Below, one piece after another: positions 14,753 through 52,464 of a DNA stretch of 64,000 nt. The notes under the pieces are model-generated. The model was not told the origin of the DNA, made no database searches, and was given only the letters and a program-made list of their open reading frames with translations. This DNA comes from Lentisphaeria bacterium (GTDB lineage: Bacteria > Verrucomicrobiota > Lentisphaeria > Victivallales > Victivallaceae): contig JAFTRX010000071.1 in assembly GCA_017462015.1 (NCBI GenBank), positions 62,001-126,000 of the forward strand. The letters run 5' to 3'. Position numbers and translations under genes: made by a program. Position 1 is the first letter of the stretch, and the number at the start of each line of letters is the position of its first letter.

Positions 14753-14936
14753 CCCAGCTGCCGGTTGCGTTCATATCAATTTTTGAACGCAACTCCACTG
14801 GCAGCGCGGCGCGGAGCGCACGCGCGTTTTGCTTGCGCAAAACAATATCAGACAAAATCGCTTTTTCGACATACAATTTTATTCCACTGAAAAAATTGAA
14901 AAACAAACGTTTTGCTGATTTTATGTAATAGCTGTG
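14753..14936 (+). repeat. Short (half-length) copy C of the intergenic repeat family
   Basis: This fills most of the 310-bp gap between trxA and alaS. It shares the block from TTTTGAACGCAACTCCACTGG through the ACGCGCGTTTTGC/GCAAAAC hairpin to GATTTTATG with copies A (26632-26789) and B (27880-28034), but lacks the central hairpin module. Its right end, read inward, is CACAGCTATTACATAA, close to the terminal repeat of copy B. The left end CCCAGCTG is a weaker match. No target duplication is seen. A second TTTTGAACGCAAC-related inverted copy (GGTTGCGTTCATAT) lies at its left edge. Confidence 0.8.
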
Positions 14937-21881: not shown

Positions 21882-21906
21882 TATCCCGGCGCGATTACAA
21901 AAAGGA

Positions 21907-21948
21907 ACCGTTGCAAAACCTTGAGTTTTGCAACGGTCTTTTTTTTTA
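21907..21948. terminator. Strong bidirectional terminator between Gfo/Idh and the Mur ligase gene
   Basis: ACCGTTGCAAAAC (21907-21919) and GTTTTGCAACGGT (21925-21937) form a 13-bp stem with loop CTTGA. A T-tract follows on the plus strand (21939-21948) and a shorter one on the minus strand. The hairpin plus the next ~25 bases (ATAAGAACAACCTGCGGC) recur behind rpsD at 26870-26924. Confidence 0.88.
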
Positions 21949-26408: not shown

Positions 26409-26436
26409 AATATATTGTAAAAAAGTGATTTGTCAA
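26409..26436 (-). promoter_or_regulatory. Promoter for the acidic zinc-ribbon gene
   Basis: On the minus strand TTGACA (26431-26436), 16-bp spacer, TATATT (26409-26414). Confidence 0.7.
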
Positions 26437-26466: not shown

Positions 26467-26789
26467 CTCAGCTGTCCCGTAAGAAACAACCAACGGCGGC
26501 GCCTCGCGGGCAATCTTGGGGGCAAATCGGCGGACTCAGCTTCAGTCGAGGACGGAAGTCCACTCCTTCAGCTTCGCCTTGATTTACCCCCAACCTTGCA
26601 CCACGATCCATCCGCCGGTCGCGGCAGACCAGTTTTGAACGCAACTCCACTGGTGGCGCGGCGCATGGCGCACGCGCGTTTTGCTTTTCGCAAAACAAAA
26701 TCTGACAAAATCACTTTTTCAAAATCCTATTTTCTTCCGCTGAAAAAATTGAAAAACAAGCATTTCGCTGATTTTATGGGATAACTGCT
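26467..26789 (-). repeat. Copy A of the ~322-bp intergenic repeat (MITE-like), 3' of rpsD
   Basis: This occupies most of the 605-bp gap between the zinc-ribbon gene and rpsD. It aligns end to end with copy B (27713-28034). Ends are CTCAGCTGTCCCGTAA and, read inward from the right, AGCAGTTATCCCATAA. It contains the central hairpin (arms 26516-26528 and 26581-26593) and the GTTTTGC-type hairpin near 26680. No target duplication is visible (flanks GAAAAAGTT and ATTTTTTTT). Beyond its right end, 26845-26890 holds an inverted fragment of the same family (ATAAGAACAACCTACGGC on the minus strand). Confidence 0.85.
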
Positions 26790-26888
26790 ATTTTTTTTAA
26801 CAACTGCTTTATAAAAGACTCTTTTGCGACGGTGGAAATGCGTTCAAAACCAATATGAACGCGACCGGTGGCCGTAGGTTGTTCTTAT

Positions 26889-26924
26889 AAAAAAAGACCG
26901 TTGCAAAACCTTTGGTTTTGCAAC
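26889..26924 (-). terminator. Intrinsic terminator of rpsD, shared sequence with the Gfo/Idh terminator
   Basis: GTTGCAAAACC (26900-26910) pairs with GGTTTTGCAAC (26914-26924). On the minus strand it is followed by GGTC and seven T residues, then ATAAGAACAACCTACGGC. Confidence 0.88.
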
Positions 26925-26955
26925 AGCCTCTTTTTTGAGCTTACGCTTCGGTAAA

Positions 26956-27558
26956 TTACCGGGCGTAGTATTCGACGACGCTCATGATCTTGACCGGAAC
27001 CGGAATCTCCTCGAGCTGGGGAGCGCGGACCAGGGTCGCTTTGAGGTTGTCGAGATCGACTTCCATGTACGGAGGAACGATGTTGTTGCTCTTCTTGGCA
27101 GCTTCAGCAGCGGCGGGAGACTTGGCGGCATCAATGGAGATGACCTGACCTTCTTTGATCACGCAGCTGGAACGGTCAACGCGTTTGCCATCGACGAGGA
27201 TGTGACCATGGTTGACGATCTGCTTGGCAGCGAAGATGGTCGGAGCGAAACCGGCGCGATAGACCAGCGCATCGAGACGCATTTCGAGGCTGCGGAACAA
27301 CTTTTCGTGAGTAAGACCGAGACCGCTTTTGGCCTTGGCGAAAGCGATGCGAAGCTGCTTTTCGCTGATGGCATAGTAGTTGCGGAGTTTCTGTTTTTCC
27401 AGAAGCAATTCGCCGTAGGTGGAAAGTTTGACGCGACGGCCCTTACCATGGGGACCTGCAGCATACGGACGCTTGACGCTCGGACATTTCGGGTCGCCCC
27501 AGAGGCACTGACCGATACGACGACAGAATTTGTGTTTTGCTCGACTTGCGGTTGGCAT
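26956..27558 (-). CDS. rpsD: 30S ribosomal protein S4
   Basis: About 200 residues. The N-terminal zinc-type region has CRRIGQCLWGDPKCP (C+ form), then KLSTYGELLLEKQKLRNYYAISEKQ. The S4 RNA-binding domain has LEMRLDALVYRAGFAPT near 93 and QIVNHGHILVDGKRVD near 118. S4 binds 16S rRNA early in 30S assembly. The start ATG 27558 has AAGGG upstream; a TTG two codons earlier is less likely. The gene stands alone, outside an S13-S11-S4-rpoA cluster, and lies between two copies of the repeat family. Confidence 0.95.
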   Translation of the reverse strand: MPTASRAKHKFCRRIGQCLWGDPKCPSVKRPYAAGPHGKGRRVKLSTYGELLLEKQKLRNYYAISEKQLRIAFAKAKSGLGLTHEKLFRSLEMRLDALVYRAGFAPTIFAAKQIVNHGHILVDGKRVDRSSCVIKEGQVISIDAAKSPAAAEAAKKSNNIVPPYMEVDLDNLKATLVRAPQLEEIPVPVKIMSVVEYYAR

Positions 27559-27655
27559 AACCAATCCCTTTCTTTTTAAATTTGTTTATCTCCGGCACTC
27601 CGGGTGTCAAGCCTTATATTATATAATGGGGCCCGAAATACCAACGTATTTGTAT

Positions 27656-27683
27656 AATATACACCGAAATCGGCTGTTTTCAA
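27656..27683 (-). promoter_or_regulatory. Promoter for rpsD
   Basis: On the minus strand TTGAAA (27678-27683), 16-bp spacer, TATATT (27656-27661). It lies between rpsD and repeat copy B, so the repeat has not split it. The leader is about 90 bases. Confidence 0.6.
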
Positions 27684-27703
27684 GCAATATTTTCTTTTTT
27701 TGC

Positions 27704-28043
27704 GTAAAATATCACAGCTTTCCCATAAGAAACGACCTGCGGCGGCGCCTCGTGGGCAATCTTGGGGGCAAATCTGCGGACTCAGCTTCAGTCGAGGACG
27801 GAAGTCCACTCCTTCAGCTTCGCCTTGATTTACCCCCAACCTTGCACCACGATCCATCCGCCGATCGCGACAAAGCATTTTGAACGCAGTGTCACTGGTG
27901 GCGCGGCGCATGGCGCACGCGCGTTTTGCTTGCGCAAAACAAAATCTGACAAAATCACTTTTTCAAAATCTTATTTTCTTCCGCTGCAAAAATTGAAAAA
28001 ACAAACTTTTTTCTTATTTTATGGGATATCTGTGGTAAAATAT
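27704..28043 (-). mobile_element. Copy B of the repeat family: MITE-like element with terminal inverted repeats and 9-bp target duplication
   Basis: The element proper is 27713-28034 (322 bp). Its ends are CACAGCTTTCCCATAA and, read inward from the right, CACAGATATCCCATAA: 14 of 16 positions match. It is bounded by the direct repeat GTAAAATAT at 27704-27712 and 28035-28043, as expected for a 9-bp target duplication. There is no transposase gene inside. It carries the central hairpin (arms 27762-27774 and 27827-27839) and a 7-bp GTTTTGC/GCAAAAC stem with loop TTGC near 27925. It sits 3 bp past the stop codon of the U32 peptidase gene and fills the gap before rpsD. Confidence 0.85.
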
Positions 28044-36467: not shown

Positions 36468-38423
36468 ATGAGTGAGTACAAATTCTTCAACGTCGTCCCG
36501 TATTATCCCGGTCACGAGGAGGAGACTGCGCAGGATTTGATCGAACTTTACCAGCGTACCGGAATTGACCGCATCCTGTACAGCTTGTCTTTCCACCCGG
36601 AAGGCAGAAATGCTATGGAAAAAGCGGAACGTCTGGTGGCAAGCTACCGCAAACTCCGCGACGCTCTTGCCAAAGAACCGGCGATCCGGTGCGGCGTACT
36701 TATCCAGAGTATCCTCGGTCATGTCATCGGTTCCAAACTCGACAGCGAACAGTGGACACGAGTCATCACCCACGAAGGTGTGATCGAAGGAAAAAATACC
36801 CGTTTCTGCTCGCTGGATGCGGGTTTTACCAACTATATCCGCTCCGTCGGAGCTATGGTTGCCAAAGAGAAACCGTTCTTCATTCTCGGTGACGACGATA
36901 TCCGTTCCTGGTCGTCAGGTGTGGAGTGTTTCTGCGAACTCCACACTGCGGAATACAACCGCCGTCACGGAACAACTTTCACTCCGGAAGAGTATCGCAA
37001 AGCGGTTTGCGAGTCTCCGGCAGACAGTGAACTCTATAAAAACTTTGATCAGCTCCGTCAGGACACCGTCAACCGGGTCGCGGCTCTTCTCCGTGAAGGC
37101 ATTGACTCTGTCGATCCATCCATCCCCGGCGGAAGCTGTATGCCTGGTGGAGAATATTTCTTCAATCAGGACACTTCCCGCGCGCTCGGCGCCAAAGATC
37201 AAACCGACTCTGTGATGCGTATTTGCAATGCGTTGTATGTCGAACAGTCTCCGCGCGATTTCGCCGCCAACGTGTTCAAGAGTCAGGCTTACCGGAAATA
37301 TCATTCCGGTGTCACCACCGTGCTGGATGAAAGTGATACCTTTCCCCATTCGCTCTTCAGTAAATCCGCCATCAGTTTCCACGCCAAAGAGTGTTCGGCG
37401 ATCTTCAATGGTCTCAACGGTGCCAAACTCTGGTTCGTGAACTGCCGCCGCCCCGGCATTGTGGTCAGCCGGAAGTACACTGAAATTCTGGAAAAGTACC
37501 GCAACTTCTACCCCGCTTTGTCTGCCGCTGTTGCCGACAGCGAGACCTGCGGTGTCCGTATTCCCATCCATACCGACAAGGGTAACTGGCACGCGATCAC
37601 CAACCGGACTCCGAATATCACTCCCGGCTCATCCTGGGCTGAATTTCTGGGGATTTTCGGCATTCCGTTCTCTGCGGAAAAAGATTACACCCTTGATGGG
37701 ATTTACGCCATCAGAGGCAGTGAATTCGTCTCCCGCAAGAGCGATGAGGAGCTGCTCACTTTGCTCAAAGGAAAACTGCTGGTCGATGGCGATGCCGCCA
37801 AGGCTCTGACGGAACGCGGTTTTGCCAAATACCTCGGTGTGGAAGCTGTTGCGGCAACGCATCCGTTCAGCGGCGAGCGTTATATCGACGGTGATCCCAT
37901 CTACTGCCGCACCTGGGTGGATGCGCCGCAGCTGGTTCCGTGCAGTGACGACCTTGAAGTGCTGACCCAGATGTACTACACCCCTTACATGTACGCTCCC
38001 AATTCCAAAATCGTCTGCCCCGGCGCTGTCATCTTCAGCAATGAACTCGGCGGCAGGATCTGTACCACCGTCTTCCGGACTACCGATGAATTCACCCCGC
38101 GCGGCGGAGAACCCCGCAAGAACTGGCTGATCTATCTGCTGGAAGCTATGGAAAACGGCGGCGCATCCGGAACCATCATCACCGATCAGCCGGCACTTTC
38201 CATCACCCGGAAGATGAGTGACAACTCCACGCTGGTCATGATTTGCAATCTGGGCTTTGATGCTCTGGATGATATTGTGATCAAGTACAAAAATGCCTCC
38301 ATGGTCACTGTTCTTTCTGCGGATGGAGTCTGGGAAAAGGTTCCGTTCGCCGCAAGCGGCAGCACGGTTTCCATCCCCCGGGCTGTTGCCTGCTACGAGA
38401 CTGTTGTAATCAAAATCAAATAA
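36468..38423 (+). CDS. Putative glycosidase-like protein (cytoplasmic paralogue of a tandem pair)
   Basis: 651 residues without a signal peptide. I cannot name the family. It aligns along its whole length with the next gene. Shared blocks are FNVVPYYPG/FNIIPCRIG at the start, FFILGDDDIRS at 137-147, SVDPSIPGG at 214-222, ESPRDF-like near 260, VLDESDTFP at 285-293, SKSAISFHAKECSAIFNGL near 298 and LPGAV...N.LGG near 520. Alternating strands and helices with acidic residues at strand ends suggest a TIM-barrel hydrolase of clan GH-A type, with a C-terminal beta domain. The Asp of GDDD and the Glu of DES are candidate catalytic residues. This is inference. AGAGAGGTG precedes the start. C-rich codons suggest high expression. 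Confidence 0.75.
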   Translation: MSEYKFFNVVPYYPGHEEETAQDLIELYQRTGIDRILYSLSFHPEGRNAMEKAERLVASYRKLRDALAKEPAIRCGVLIQSILGHVIGSKLDSEQWTRVITHEGVIEGKNTRFCSLDAGFTNYIRSVGAMVAKEKPFFILGDDDIRSWSSGVECFCELHTAEYNRRHGTTFTPEEYRKAVCESPADSELYKNFDQLRQDTVNRVAALLREGIDSVDPSIPGGSCMPGGEYFFNQDTSRALGAKDQTDSVMRICNALYVEQSPRDFAANVFKSQAYRKYHSGVTTVLDESDTFPHSLFSKSAISFHAKECSAIFNGLNGAKLWFVNCRRPGIVVSRKYTEILEKYRNFYPALSAAVADSETCGVRIPIHTDKGNWHAITNRTPNITPGSSWAEFLGIFGIPFSAEKDYTLDGIYAIRGSEFVSRKSDEELLTLLKGKLLVDGDAAKALTERGFAKYLGVEAVAATHPFSGERYIDGDPIYCRTWVDAPQLVPCSDDLEVLTQMYYTPYMYAPNSKIVCPGAVIFSNELGGRICTTVFRTTDEFTPRGGEPRKNWLIYLLEAMENGGASGTIITDQPALSITRKMSDNSTLVMICNLGFDALDDIVIKYKNASMVTVLSADGVWEKVPFAASGSTVSIPRAVACYETVVIKIK

Positions 38424-38452
38424 CCAGATATATATAAGGAGTTGTATTATAA

Positions 38453-40495
38453 ATGAAAAAAATGTTGTTTATGTTGTGTGCATTTGCGGCAGTTGCCGCG
38501 TTGGCTGCACCTCAGAAATATGATGCACGCTACGATTACCTCACCAAAAAATTCAATATGTTCAATATCATTCCCTGCCGGATCGGTGCGGAAGAAGAAA
38601 CCGTTAAAGACATTATTGAATTTTATCAGCGAACCGGTATCGACACGGTTTTGTACAGTATGCCTCTGCATCCGCAAAACAGCACGCCTTACAAACGGTT
38701 GGACGACGTGCTTGCCAGTTATCGCAAAGTCAAAGCCGGTCTTGCCGGATATCCGATCAAGTTCGGCGCCCTGATCCAGGCTATCCTCGGTCACGTCACC
38801 AATCCGACGGTGGTTATTGATGGTTGGACCAGAACTTATACTTCCCGCCAGAAGGCCGCCCGTTTCTGCGCGTTGAACCCCAACTTTGCCAAGTATATTC
38901 GGACAGTCGGTGCGCGGGTCGCGGCGGAAAAGCCGTTCTTCATCCTCGGTGATGACGATATCCGTTCCAACAATGGCGGCAGAGAGTGTTTCTGCGCGCT
39001 GCATGTTGCAGAGTACAACCGCCGGTTCAAGGGGAACTTCAAAACTCCGGAAGAGTACCGCAGTGCGGTCGTCAATGCCAAAAATACCGATCAGGTCTAT
39101 CTCAATTACGAGATCCTGCGTAAAGAAGGTGTTGCCAATGTCGGTAAGTTTTTGCGTGAAGGTATCAACTCTGTCGATCCTTCCATCCCCGGCGGAACCT
39201 GCTGTCCCGGCGGTGAATATTATCACTATTTCGACCTCACCCGCGAGATGGCGGCAAAAAATCAGCCGCACATGATGCGTATGTGCAATGCTCATTACGT
39301 TGAAGAGTCCCCCCGCGACTTCCCCTATAATGTACTCAAAACTCAGATTTACCGCAAGCACTTCAGCTCCATCCCCTCTCTCTTCGACGAAAGCGATACC
39401 TTCCCGCAGGCTCTGCACAGCAAATCTGCTATGAGTCTGCACGCCAAAGTTTCCTCTGCCATTTTCAACGGCTTGAGGGGAACCAAGCTCTGGTATGTGA
39501 ATTGTCACAAGCCCGGCGACTTTGTGGTAAGCCGCAAATATACTGATATTCTTGCCAAACATGCAAAATTTTATCCGGCGCTCTTTGAAGCAGTGCAGGG
39601 CAGTCGTGACGGCGGGGTTTTTATTCCCGGGTTCAAGAGCGAGCATCTGTTCCACTCCACCAATTTTTCGACCCCTATCATTCCTCCGGAAGTGCAGAAC
39701 TGGGCGTGGTTCATGGGTATCTACGGTATTCCGTTCTACGGAGAAGTCCACTTCAACAAGCTGGGAGTCTATGCGTTGCGCGGTGCGTATGCCGTTGGAC
39801 GGTTGACTGATGCACAGTTGAAAGATATGTTCAAAAACAAAGTTCTCGTAGACGGCGCCGCTGCTGTCGAGTTGTGCAAGCGCGGTTTCAGTAAATATCT
39901 GGGAATCGAAACGCGCACGCCGGATTGCTTCTACCGCAGTGAAGTTTATCCTGACACCAAACAGAACATTTACTGCCGCAGCTGGAAAGGTGCTCCGGAG
40001 CTGGTCATAAAGTCCCCAAATGCCAAAGTTCTGACCCTTATCAATGCGATCAGCTATGCGGTAAAAGGCGACCGCAACCGGGTCCTTCCCGGAGCGGTGC
40101 TTTGTGAAAATTCCCTCGGCGGCAAAGTGTTGACCGTTGCTTTCTGCAGTGAAGAACACTTTTCTCTCCGTGCCGGTACTCCCCGACAGAATTGGTTGAA
40201 CTATCTGCTGGACAACCTTGATTCGGAAGTTACCCAGGGGGCAGTTATGAACGATCAGCCGGTAATGGCGGTCAAACGTTTTGCCAAAGATGGTTCCAAA
40301 CTGCTGATGATCGTCAATCTGGGATATGATCCGCTTGATTCTGTCACCCTCAAGCTGAACAAGGTGGCAAAAATAGAATCTTTGAACGAACAGGGGGAAT
40401 GGGTCCCGGTCAAATTCAAACGTGCATGTGCAAAAAACGTGGTTGCCGATATTGCCATGCCATGCTACAAAGTCGTCATTTTGCGGGTAAAGTAA
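38453..40495 (+). CDS. Putative glycosidase-like protein (exported paralogue of a tandem pair)
   Basis: 680 residues with a clear N-terminal signal peptide (MKKMLFMLCAFAAVAALAA, cleavage probably after the last Ala). The mature protein is a full-length paralogue of the preceding gene: same blocks LGDDDIRSNNGG, SVDPSIPGG, ESPRDFPYNV, LFDESDTFPQALHSKSAMSLHAK, LPGAVLCENSLGGKVL and the C-terminal MIVNLGYDPLDSVTLK. It should act in the periplasm or outside on the same kind of glycan bond. A family assignment is not possible from sequence reading. AAGGAG precedes the start; it is 29 bp behind the first paralogue and 1 bp ahead of the lyase gene, so all three form one operon. Confidence 0.78.
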   Translation: MKKMLFMLCAFAAVAALAAPQKYDARYDYLTKKFNMFNIIPCRIGAEEETVKDIIEFYQRTGIDTVLYSMPLHPQNSTPYKRLDDVLASYRKVKAGLAGYPIKFGALIQAILGHVTNPTVVIDGWTRTYTSRQKAARFCALNPNFAKYIRTVGARVAAEKPFFILGDDDIRSNNGGRECFCALHVAEYNRRFKGNFKTPEEYRSAVVNAKNTDQVYLNYEILRKEGVANVGKFLREGINSVDPSIPGGTCCPGGEYYHYFDLTREMAAKNQPHMMRMCNAHYVEESPRDFPYNVLKTQIYRKHFSSIPSLFDESDTFPQALHSKSAMSLHAKVSSAIFNGLRGTKLWYVNCHKPGDFVVSRKYTDILAKHAKFYPALFEAVQGSRDGGVFIPGFKSEHLFHSTNFSTPIIPPEVQNWAWFMGIYGIPFYGEVHFNKLGVYALRGAYAVGRLTDAQLKDMFKNKVLVDGAAAVELCKRGFSKYLGIETRTPDCFYRSEVYPDTKQNIYCRSWKGAPELVIKSPNAKVLTLINAISYAVKGDRNRVLPGAVLCENSLGGKVLTVAFCSEEHFSLRAGTPRQNWLNYLLDNLDSEVTQGAVMNDQPVMAVKRFAKDGSKLLMIVNLGYDPLDSVTLKLNKVAKIESLNEQGEWVPVKFKRACAKNVVADIAMPCYKVVILRVK

Positions 40496-40496
40496 G

Positions 40497-42554
40497 ATGA
40501 ATAAAGTTATCAAAGCAGGGTTGAGTATTATGTGTGCTGTTACAATGACTAATGCCGGTATGGCTGATGAAAAAAGTTCCGCCAAGCGGAATGAATTGAT
40601 ACAGTTGCTGTTCAAGCAGATCGACGGAGAAAAAATCGGTGCGGATTATCAGGATGCCTGCCGCAAAAAGGATGAAAGCGGCATGATCCGGGCGCTCGCA
40701 GCGTATTATCGCAACCGTCCGGAGTCGATTTATCTGATAACGAAATTCAAAAACAAGAGTTATTCAGTTGAAACCGCTGAACGGGCACTCAATAATGATT
40801 TTACTGTCATCAATATTCCCTGGAAATTTGAAAGCGGCGTAAACTGGATATTCAATCCGACATGGAAAAAAAAGCCGGTAAACAACGAATGGCTCTGGCA
40901 GCTCGGAAGAATGTATTTCTGGCACGACATGATGCACTGTTACCGGAACAGCGGTTCGGAGCGTTACGCAAAAGTGTTTGAAGAGCAGCTTTTGTCGTGG
41001 ATTTATCAGGCGGACAAAAAAACGGCGCTTTCAGGCCCAAACAGTCACAATACCTGGCGCACTATCGAAGCCGGTATCCGGCTGCTCTATGCGTGGCCGG
41101 CGGCGTTTGAAGTGTTCCGCAAGTCGCCCGGCGTCAGTGACGAAGCACTTTGCCTGATGCTTGGTTCCATGTATGAGCAGGCGGAGTTTCTGCGGCACAA
41201 CCACAAGAAACGAAGCAACTGGCTGTTGATGGAGATGGCGGGAGTGTACACCTTTGCCTCCCAATTTCCGGAGTTCAATGATGCACAGAAATTCCGGCTC
41301 TATTCCGCAAAAGTTTTCAGCAAGGCGTTTTGCGGACAGATGATGCCCGATGGCATGCATGATGAGTTGTCGCCGGATTATCACTGGGTGAGCTTGACAT
41401 GTGCCAAAAATTTTATCGATCAGGCGCAACAGCTCAACCGGATGAGTGAACTTCCCAAGGAGCTTCCGGCGGCGTTTGAAGCTGGTTTCGATGCCTTTAT
41501 CGCATTGGCAACACCGGGACTTACCGCGCCGCGAACCAATGATTGTTATACATTTGATTTGTCAAGAGTCATGACCACGGCGCTGGAGAACTACCCGGAT
41601 AAAGAACTGTTCAAATGGGTTGCCTCCCACCGCAAGGAGGGGAAAGCTCCGGACGACAAACCTACCGCCTCCCGTTTTCTGCCCTATGCCGGTTTTATCG
41701 CCATGCGCTCCGGCTGGGATAAGGATGCACTGTACTGCTGTTTCGATGTCGGCCCGCTGGGCATGGGACATTGGCATTGGGATAAACTCAACATCAATAT
41801 CTATAAAGGTAAAGAGGAGTTGATTTACGATGACGGCGGCGGACAATATGAGTTCAGCGTGTACCGTTGGTACGGGCGCTCTTCCGCCGACCACAACACA
41901 GTGCTGGTCGATGGACTTATCCAGATGCGCAACCTGCCCAAAAAGGTGAAGCGTCCGATCGATGCAAAGTTTGTCAGCAATGAAGTGTTCGATTATGCCA
42001 AAAGCAGTTACACCGACACCTTCGGGCTGATGAAGTTTGATGGCACTGACGGCGATGTTATACCGCTGTCCAAGCCGGCAACTCATACCCGGGAAATCCG
42101 TTTCTGCAAACCGGAATTTTTCTGTGTCGTCGATAATCTGCGCACGGCAGACGGAAAAGCTCATGATTACGAACTGCGTTTTCACTTGAACACGCTGAAG
42201 ACCCGCAAGGTGCGCCAATACCCCGGCGCGGTACTCTCTGATTATCCCGGCAACGAGTACGATATCCTCATTGTGCCGCTGTTCCCTGAAAAAATTGAAA
42301 CGACCACCGCCTCCGGACGGAACAAACCGTTGATGGCAGGCTGGTTCATCGGGCGCAATGATATGGCACGGCACAAGGCGACCACGGTGATGATGCTGGC
42401 AAAACAGCAGAAAAATTTCCGTTTTGCCACGCTGCTTATCCCGGTGCGCAAGGGAGATAAATTGCCGGAGATCAAGTCTGCCGGACGGAATAAATTTAAG
42501 GTAGCGGTCAACGGAAAGCTCTTTGAACTTGATTTGACAAAACTCAATCAGTGA
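40497..42554 (+). CDS. Heparinase II/III-type polysaccharide lyase
   Basis: 685 residues. The first ~24 form a signal peptide (KAGLSIMCAVTMTNAGMA). Residues about 60-380 are an alpha/alpha-toroid with SHNTWRTIEAGIRLLYAW, NWLLMEMAGVYTFASQFPE and MMPDGMHDELSPDYHWVSL, typical of the heparinase/alginate-lyase fold. Residues about 400-685 are the Hepar_II_III beta-sandwich with YAGFIAMRSGWDKDALYCCF, GMGHWHWDKLNINIY, YEFSVYRWYGRSSADHNTVLVDG and the late blocks. The conserved Asn, His and Tyr in these blocks are the usual lyase residues. It should cleave a uronate-containing polysaccharide by beta-elimination. The 1-bp gap to the preceding gene indicates translational coupling. Confidence 0.88.
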   Translation: MNKVIKAGLSIMCAVTMTNAGMADEKSSAKRNELIQLLFKQIDGEKIGADYQDACRKKDESGMIRALAAYYRNRPESIYLITKFKNKSYSVETAERALNNDFTVINIPWKFESGVNWIFNPTWKKKPVNNEWLWQLGRMYFWHDMMHCYRNSGSERYAKVFEEQLLSWIYQADKKTALSGPNSHNTWRTIEAGIRLLYAWPAAFEVFRKSPGVSDEALCLMLGSMYEQAEFLRHNHKKRSNWLLMEMAGVYTFASQFPEFNDAQKFRLYSAKVFSKAFCGQMMPDGMHDELSPDYHWVSLTCAKNFIDQAQQLNRMSELPKELPAAFEAGFDAFIALATPGLTAPRTNDCYTFDLSRVMTTALENYPDKELFKWVASHRKEGKAPDDKPTASRFLPYAGFIAMRSGWDKDALYCCFDVGPLGMGHWHWDKLNINIYKGKEELIYDDGGGQYEFSVYRWYGRSSADHNTVLVDGLIQMRNLPKKVKRPIDAKFVSNEVFDYAKSSYTDTFGLMKFDGTDGDVIPLSKPATHTREIRFCKPEFFCVVDNLRTADGKAHDYELRFHLNTLKTRKVRQYPGAVLSDYPGNEYDILIVPLFPEKIETTTASGRNKPLMAGWFIGRNDMARHKATTVMMLAKQQKNFRFATLLIPVRKGDKLPEIKSAGRNKFKVAVNGKLFELDLTKLNQ

Positions 42555-52230: not shown

Positions 52231-52455
52231 ACTGCTGTTTCTCCAAGACGACCTGCGGCGGCTCGCTGGCGAAAATAAAAACCATAACATCCTTACGCCC
52301 TTAAGGTTCAGAAAAAAAAAGAATGGACTCTAACGGGGATGCATCGTGAGGTAAGGTTGTGGGTAAATCAAGGCGACAACGAAGGAGTGGACTTTGTGTC
52401 CATGACTGAGTGGGCGTCCGCCGATTTGCCCACAAGATTGCCCGCGAGGCATTCC
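52231..52455 (+). repeat. Copy D of the intergenic repeat family (rearranged, diverged)
   Basis: The central hairpin module is present in reverse orientation to copies A and B: TTGTGGGTAAATC (52357-52369) pairs with GATTTGCCCACAA (52423-52435), and GGCG/CGCC and GGAC/GTCC inner pairs are kept. Compared with A and B, one G-C pair of the long stem is replaced by T-A. A separate fragment of the family's left end (AGACGACCTGCGGCGGCTCGC) lies at 52246-52266 on the plus strand. The module lies 3' of the antiporter gene and tail to tail with the TadE-like gene. Confidence 0.8.
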
Positions 52456-52464
52456 CGTTTACCG

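Follow-up and report, generated by a model that had tools for sequence, protein, structure and literature searches.

We identified a hairpin module of about 126 nt that is carried by MITEs in an uncultured gut Lentisphaeria (G000; draft genome of 2.8 Mb in 131 contigs), and selection maintains one strand of this hairpin in its folded, single-stranded form. It is very probable that the hairpin is a selected fold for which MITEs are the vehicle. On balance, we favour the broader reading that this MITE-borne module acts in cis as an RNA boundary or processing hairpin. The fold is under selection, whereas the positions of its copies are not.

In the window, the whole 64,000-nt stretch that was analysed, hairpin copies A (26494–26619, minus strand; C19:88494–88619), B (27740–27865, minus strand; C19:89740–89865) and D (52332–52459, plus strand) match R1, a covariance model derived from 34 diverse hairpin copies; the match to copy A is whole-length. 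A preliminary description had placed the hairpin at 26511–26597, which is correct as to location but too short, the paired element being larger. The stem letters reported there were verified, with TTGGGGG opposite CCCCCAA in copy A and TTGTGGG opposite CCCACAA in copy D, as was the lone T·G of the long stem, which lies on the minus strand in A and B but on the plus strand in D and reads as A·C on the other strand. This T·G is a real clue to the strand but not the sole one; more telling are the tandem G·A oppositions, which the other strand shows as T·C. Both sides of the copy D outer stem have been rewritten (AACGGGGATGC / GCATTCCCGTT) with pairing retained. A variant of the hairpin, found in L134–L138 and similar family members, has its middle stem swapped (GUUUUGCGUAUGAGCAGC...) and its outer stem and internal loop unchanged.

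The minus strand of copy A folded at −77.5 kcal/mol (z −6.7 relative to shuffles) and its opposite strand at −57.6 kcal/mol (z −3.5); for copy D the corresponding values were −74.0 kcal/mol (z −9.0) for the plus strand and −49.7 kcal/mol (z −5.2) for the opposite strand. Both strands of A and D therefore beat the shuffled sequences, and the strand named in the preliminary description did so by far more. Covariation, whose absence that description had named as grounds for rejecting its proposal, was tested and is strong on the wobble strand. At the stem position that distinguishes TTGGGGG from TTGTGGG, where covariation had been noticed between copies, the 91 own-genome copies examined contained C-G 38 times, G-C 27 times, T·G 9 times, T-A and C·A once each, and other combinations 15 times; 66 copies are thus Watson–Crick paired compared with 39 expected under independence of the two sides (chi-square p 3e-9). 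The alignment of 34 diverse copies, in which 93.7% of cells are paired, showed two-sided changes at 28 of the 41 base pairs, amounting to 166 cells, whereas shuffled controls gave 53 ± 6 cells and controls with the partners slid by 1–3 columns gave 7–17. Among 117 distinct copies from relatives, 649 cells had two-sided changes, spread over 36 of the 41 pairs, with the reservation that this alignment was fitted to the model. The alignment of 34 copies served both for drawing the model structure and for its covariation test, and a ranking by mutual information, which is independent of any structure, identified stem pairs as eight of the 10 strongest column pairs (of 7400), with all 10 localised within one column of a stem pair. 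The hairpin accordingly displays covariation for one fold on one strand, one of the features expected of a conserved structured RNA. The comparison with Rfam suggested in the preliminary description placed the hairpin in no family: no match reached the gathering score in the whole window, and nothing relevant appeared at E values up to 5 for an L076 array or for the region of copy A.

On the wobble strand, opposed positions were occupied by G·A 207 times and by T·C 6 times, and by G·U 61 times and A·C 24 times, with two columns supplying 39 of the 61 G·U. The excess of G·A over T·C identifies the strand that had been named from the T·G as the folded one. The G·A oppositions recur as three tandem GA/GA steps, of which the innermost (columns 55–56/76–77) is almost invariant; in some species GC/GC pairs take the place of the middle step (columns 51–52/80–81), and in others ordinary pairs take that of the outer step (columns 45–46/87–88). 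Imperfect palindromes are common in MITEs (PMC10969869), and the hairpin could in principle be a passive palindrome with sides that are alike by descent only and a fold that is not selected. The two-sided changes far above controls and the 207:6 ratio make this extremely improbable.

In flank alignments, the hairpin occupied a constant position close to the right-hand end of small transposons. Many copies form the right-end module of MITEs of ∼280–325 bp that have terminal inverted repeats and are flanked by target duplications of 8 or 9 bp. Copy A belongs to a 323-bp MITE (26467–26789, minus strand; left end AGCAGTTATCCCATAAAATC, right end TTACGGGACAGCTGAG) for which no target duplication is recognisable today, and copy B to a 322-bp MITE (27713–28034, minus strand; ends CACAGATATCCCATAAAA...GGGAAAGCTGTG) flanked by a perfect 9-bp target duplication, ATATTTTAC, at 27704–27712 and 28035–28043. 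The left part of the same MITE type, with the structured hairpin absent, is present at 14781–14913 (no strand assigned). The own-genome type-a unit (∼322 bp) has the inverted ends CACAGATATCCCATAAAA / TTATGGGACAGCTGTG, of the form CACAG...CTGTG, and its 9-bp duplications match at eight or more of nine positions in 11 of 18 cases (controls 0.7%). Other own-genome copies feature GTTAATGTCCC... ends, some with 8-bp duplications. The unit in genome G012 (∼281 bp) has imperfect inverted ends of ∼24 bp (GATAATGTCCCGAATTTTGTGAAA / TTCACAAAAAATGAGACAATAAC) and 8-bp target duplications that match at seven or more of eight positions in 37 of 42 cases, compared with 4.6% for mismatched controls. Besides having inverted repeats at their termini and target-site duplications of constant length, these units measure mostly 170–325 bp between the ends, which is too short for a transposase gene. 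MITEs of ∼190 bp in which the hairpin core is lost or another small module is present instead also have perfect duplications. Because these hairpin-less MITEs moved as well, the hairpin is cargo and dispensable for movement. The same hairpin is common to MITEs with different ends, and some copies are found outside recognisable MITE ends; the latter, together with tandem arrays, suggest that the hairpin may also spread by another route. A second repeat module of ∼30 nt (e.g., CTTGTCGCGGCGTAGTGCAACGGAGACGGA) is located at the hairpin base or replaces the hairpin in MITEs of several species (L325, L330, L334, L332, L234, and L253).

A nucleotide search of the own genome returned 49 hairpin matches, and the R1 model identified at least 135 copies at E up to 0.01 among the best 150 candidates scored. 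R1 also matched 27 genomes of the same family in a 137-genome sample of the order, as well as a single contig in another family; copy counts in relatives are lower bounds, taken from the best 25 candidates per relative. The hairpin pattern was found in MAGs named Lentisphaeria or Lentisphaerae bacterium, and its spread within the genus is patchy, with a large part of the genomes lacking it. Near-identical, recent bursts of copies were observed in G012 and G018, and some copies in G015, G021, and G030 are arranged in tandem or as mosaics that lack recognisable ends. Many own-genome copies are located at contig ends (C98, C65, C29, C91, C21, C60, C87, C131, and others), so the repeat is a likely cause of assembly breaks and, in practical terms, of MAG fragmentation in this group. 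Carriage by phages was considered and set aside, as an exact-pattern search of viral contigs gave no match.

According to gene calls from a codon-usage caller made for this analysis, the hairpin copies are near-exclusively intergenic, overlapping a called gene in 2 of the 132 own-genome R1 copies used in context counts and in 0 of 84 copies in relatives. The preliminary description correctly placed A 3′ of rpsD, B 3′ of the U32 gene and D 3′ of the antiporter gene, and proposed a structured RNA in 3′-untranslated regions, processed or protein-bound and sense to the upstream gene. What stands of this proposal is the conserved, covarying fold on one strand; a role as the 3′-UTR element of particular genes does not. 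The upstream gene is on the hairpin strand in 107 of 175 copies (p = 0.004), but this excess arises partly because convergent sites outnumber divergent ones (50:27), and only codirectional contexts are informative on hairpin orientation. In the own genome, we counted 31 copies codirectional with the hairpin, 28 convergent, 17 divergent, and 15 codirectional against it; the respective counts in nine relatives were 26, 22, 10, and 26. The sense to antisense ratio of 31:15 in the own genome (p = 0.03) thus stands against 26:26 in the relatives, and the pooled ratio is 57:41 (p = 0.13). Orientation relative to upstream genes is therefore largely random, an outcome that the preliminary description had itself named as speaking against its proposal. 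The sites are also not conserved, with A, B, and D absent at matching sites in relatives. Seven of nine relatives have no copy downstream of rpsD, the exceptions being a strong match in G008 and a marginal one in G018 (E 0.0024), both antisense to rpsD. In G003, the U32 gene is directly followed by the next gene, and rpsD, A, and B are absent, corresponding to an empty site; the 3′ side of the antiporter gene contained no hairpin in the three relatives examined. Furthermore, the canonical intrinsic terminator of rpsD (26889–26924, minus strand; GTTGCAAAACC-AAA-GGTTTTGCAAC-GGTCTTTTTTT) is positioned between rpsD and copy A. Given this terminator, the inconsistent orientation, the unconserved sites, and the MITE insertions with target duplications, we consider the 3′-UTR proposal unlikely.

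Within the window, rpsD is flanked by two MITE copies (26467–28043), and the sister genome G003 has rpsD elsewhere and lacks this segment. The neighbours of rpsD differ in several relatives, and this gene seems to relocate often within the genus. Composite transposition of a MITE-rpsD-MITE unit was rejected, as no duplication links the outer flank of B with that of A; with rpsD in varied neighbourhoods in relatives, its relocation cannot be attributed to the MITEs. Elsewhere in the window, two diverged direct-repeat pairs (D3 and D4) with a spacing of about 2060 bp span 36799–39264. The genes at this location are adjacent and alike in size (36468–38423, 38453–40495, and 40497–42554) and are probably paralogues.

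A promoter-like TTGACA-16-TATATT of the next gene lies outside MITE A, past its right end (26409–26436, minus strand). Many MITE types contain, on the strand opposite to the fold, a promoter-like TTGACA-17-TATATT/TATGTT site that is 20–29 nt left of the hairpin and points away from it. Sites with at least 10 of 12 matches numbered 51 on the opposite strand, 45 of them at 20–29 nt, and 4 on the folded strand. The MITEs of G012, G015, G018, and G021 and types b and c of G000 feature a near-consensus sigma-70 site reading out of the MITE left end; such an outward site could drive or disturb left-hand neighbours. As it points away, the hairpin is not transcribed from this site, and since our scan identified almost no promoter-like site that reads into the hairpin on the folded strand, transcription of the hairpin would depend on read-through. 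The GC-rich closing stem and, in several MITE types, a T-rich stretch a few bases downstream would suit a module that is itself an intrinsic transcription terminator. Such a terminator has a GC stem directly followed by a T run, but here the T run begins about 8–9 nt past the closing stem, and a terminator scan of L236 detected none at the hairpin tail. The genome has ordinary terminators with T7, and a terminator does not need the conserved internal loops, making this function very unlikely. The GTTGCAAAACC...GGTTTTGCAAC terminator with its T7 is repeated behind different genes in the window (21895–21946 and 26885–26936).

The main rival to our reading is that the fold is needed for the spread of the hairpin itself, as single-stranded DNA or as an RNA intermediate of a mobile unit in its own right, nested within MITEs, like REP/IS200-type or attC-type substrates. 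The fold is indeed strand-specific and tolerates G·A and G·T oppositions, which suits single-stranded DNA also, and the hairpin occurs within MITEs of differing ends, outside them and in tandem arrays, as such a unit might. Our search for partner transposases, which covered only a few families in incomplete drafts, found none, and MAG assemblies may drop such contigs. No Y1/HUH transposase (PF01797) was found in G000, although control genomes gave matches, and a REP/RAYT system, which requires this enzyme, was rejected on these grounds. Retron or other reverse transcriptase-driven spread was likewise rejected, the reverse transcriptase being weak and uncorrelated with hairpin presence. Strand specificity and a neighbouring tyrosine recombinase prompted us to consider integron attC sites. 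However, the only tyrosine recombinase seen next to a copy (298 aa), judged by its sequence, looks like an ordinary chromosomal XerD, and the copies are dispersed with MITE target duplications, which the G012 hairpin units carry; a second “copy” at the 3′ end of the recombinase gene is a half match only. Taken together, own spread of the hairpin appears doubtful. As for the MITEs, their G012 end, GATAATGTCCCGAATTTTGTGAAA, and its 8-bp duplication resemble those of IS256/Mutator-type insertion sequences, but the IS256-type transposase (PF00872) is missing in the ten genomes carrying G012-type ends, and IS256 was dismissed as the mover. DDE_Tnp_1 (PF01609) is essentially absent from the genomes searched.

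We therefore return to the reading of a MITE-borne module acting in cis as RNA. In this reading, the module is a long hairpin interrupted by tandem sheared-type G·A oppositions, with the folded form of one strand kept by selection, and small non-autonomous MITEs, which bear it in many copies, have filled the intergenic regions of one Lentisphaeria family. These MITEs would move as DNA via a transposase acting in trans. Read-through transcription on the folded strand would produce a rigid RNA hairpin, predicted to act in cis as a transcript boundary or as a site of processing or protection, and such action would make insertions tolerable, so that most copies would have kept the module. That the fold acts as RNA rather than as single-stranded DNA is, in our judgement, somewhat probable, whereas a boundary or processing role specifically is put forward tentatively. 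Alternatively, the hairpin may be an undescribed structured element that has a protein or RNA partner of its own, was adopted as cargo by several unrelated MITE families and spreads with or without them; recognition would then take place on its rod, along which tandem G·A pairs recur at regular intervals. We regard this as possible but not likely.

The usual explanation of a hairpin in a bacterial mobile repeat is that it arises as a by-product of the ends, whereas here something selects the folded single strand. With a conserved fold at unconserved positions and orientations, selection on the element can be told apart from selection on neighbouring genes, and RNA versus DNA action of the hairpin can now be tested with a covariance model.

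By its ends, the hairpin repeat is a bacterial MITE, with ERIC, BOX/RUP/SPRITE, Correia, and bcr as the nearest kinds. Bacterial MITEs such as Correia elements and Coxiella QMITE2 are short, non-autonomous, intergenic, and stem-loop forming, with terminal inverted repeats and target duplications (PMC10969869), and the Lentisphaeria repeat is alike in all these respects. Correia elements and QMITE1 are known to contain sigma-70-like promoters, and QMITE2 is found mainly in 3′ UTRs (PMC10969869). The repeat described here differs in that one internal module, dispensable for movement, is common to MITEs with different ends, and in that structural selection on a single strand is demonstrable across many species. 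ERIC/IRU of enterobacteria is a 127-bp mobile intergenic palindrome with tens to hundreds of copies and reported orientation-dependent transcript effects (PMC10969869, PMC3049150, PMC2759123). Compared by description, the two are alike in size, mobility, and intergenic palindrome with no sequence relation apparent, but the palindrome is the whole element in ERIC and cargo in Lentisphaeria. We know of no conserved tandem G·A loops in ERIC. The pneumococcal BOX/RUP/SPRITE repeats are modular, nested, tightly folding, clustered, and inter-inserted, and some are terminator-like (PMC3049150). The Lentisphaeria repeat is likewise modular, nested, and tightly folding, although the hosts are unrelated and covariation is absent from that account (PMC3049150). 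Finally, the bcr elements of Bacillus cereus are intergenic repeat families, about half of them transcribed in UTRs, among which bcr1–3 are MITE-like, whereas bcr10 and bcr18 have been predicted computationally to be RNA elements (PMC3446304). The MITE-like and RNA-like properties thus belong to separate repeats in B. cereus, whereas both are combined in one repeat here.
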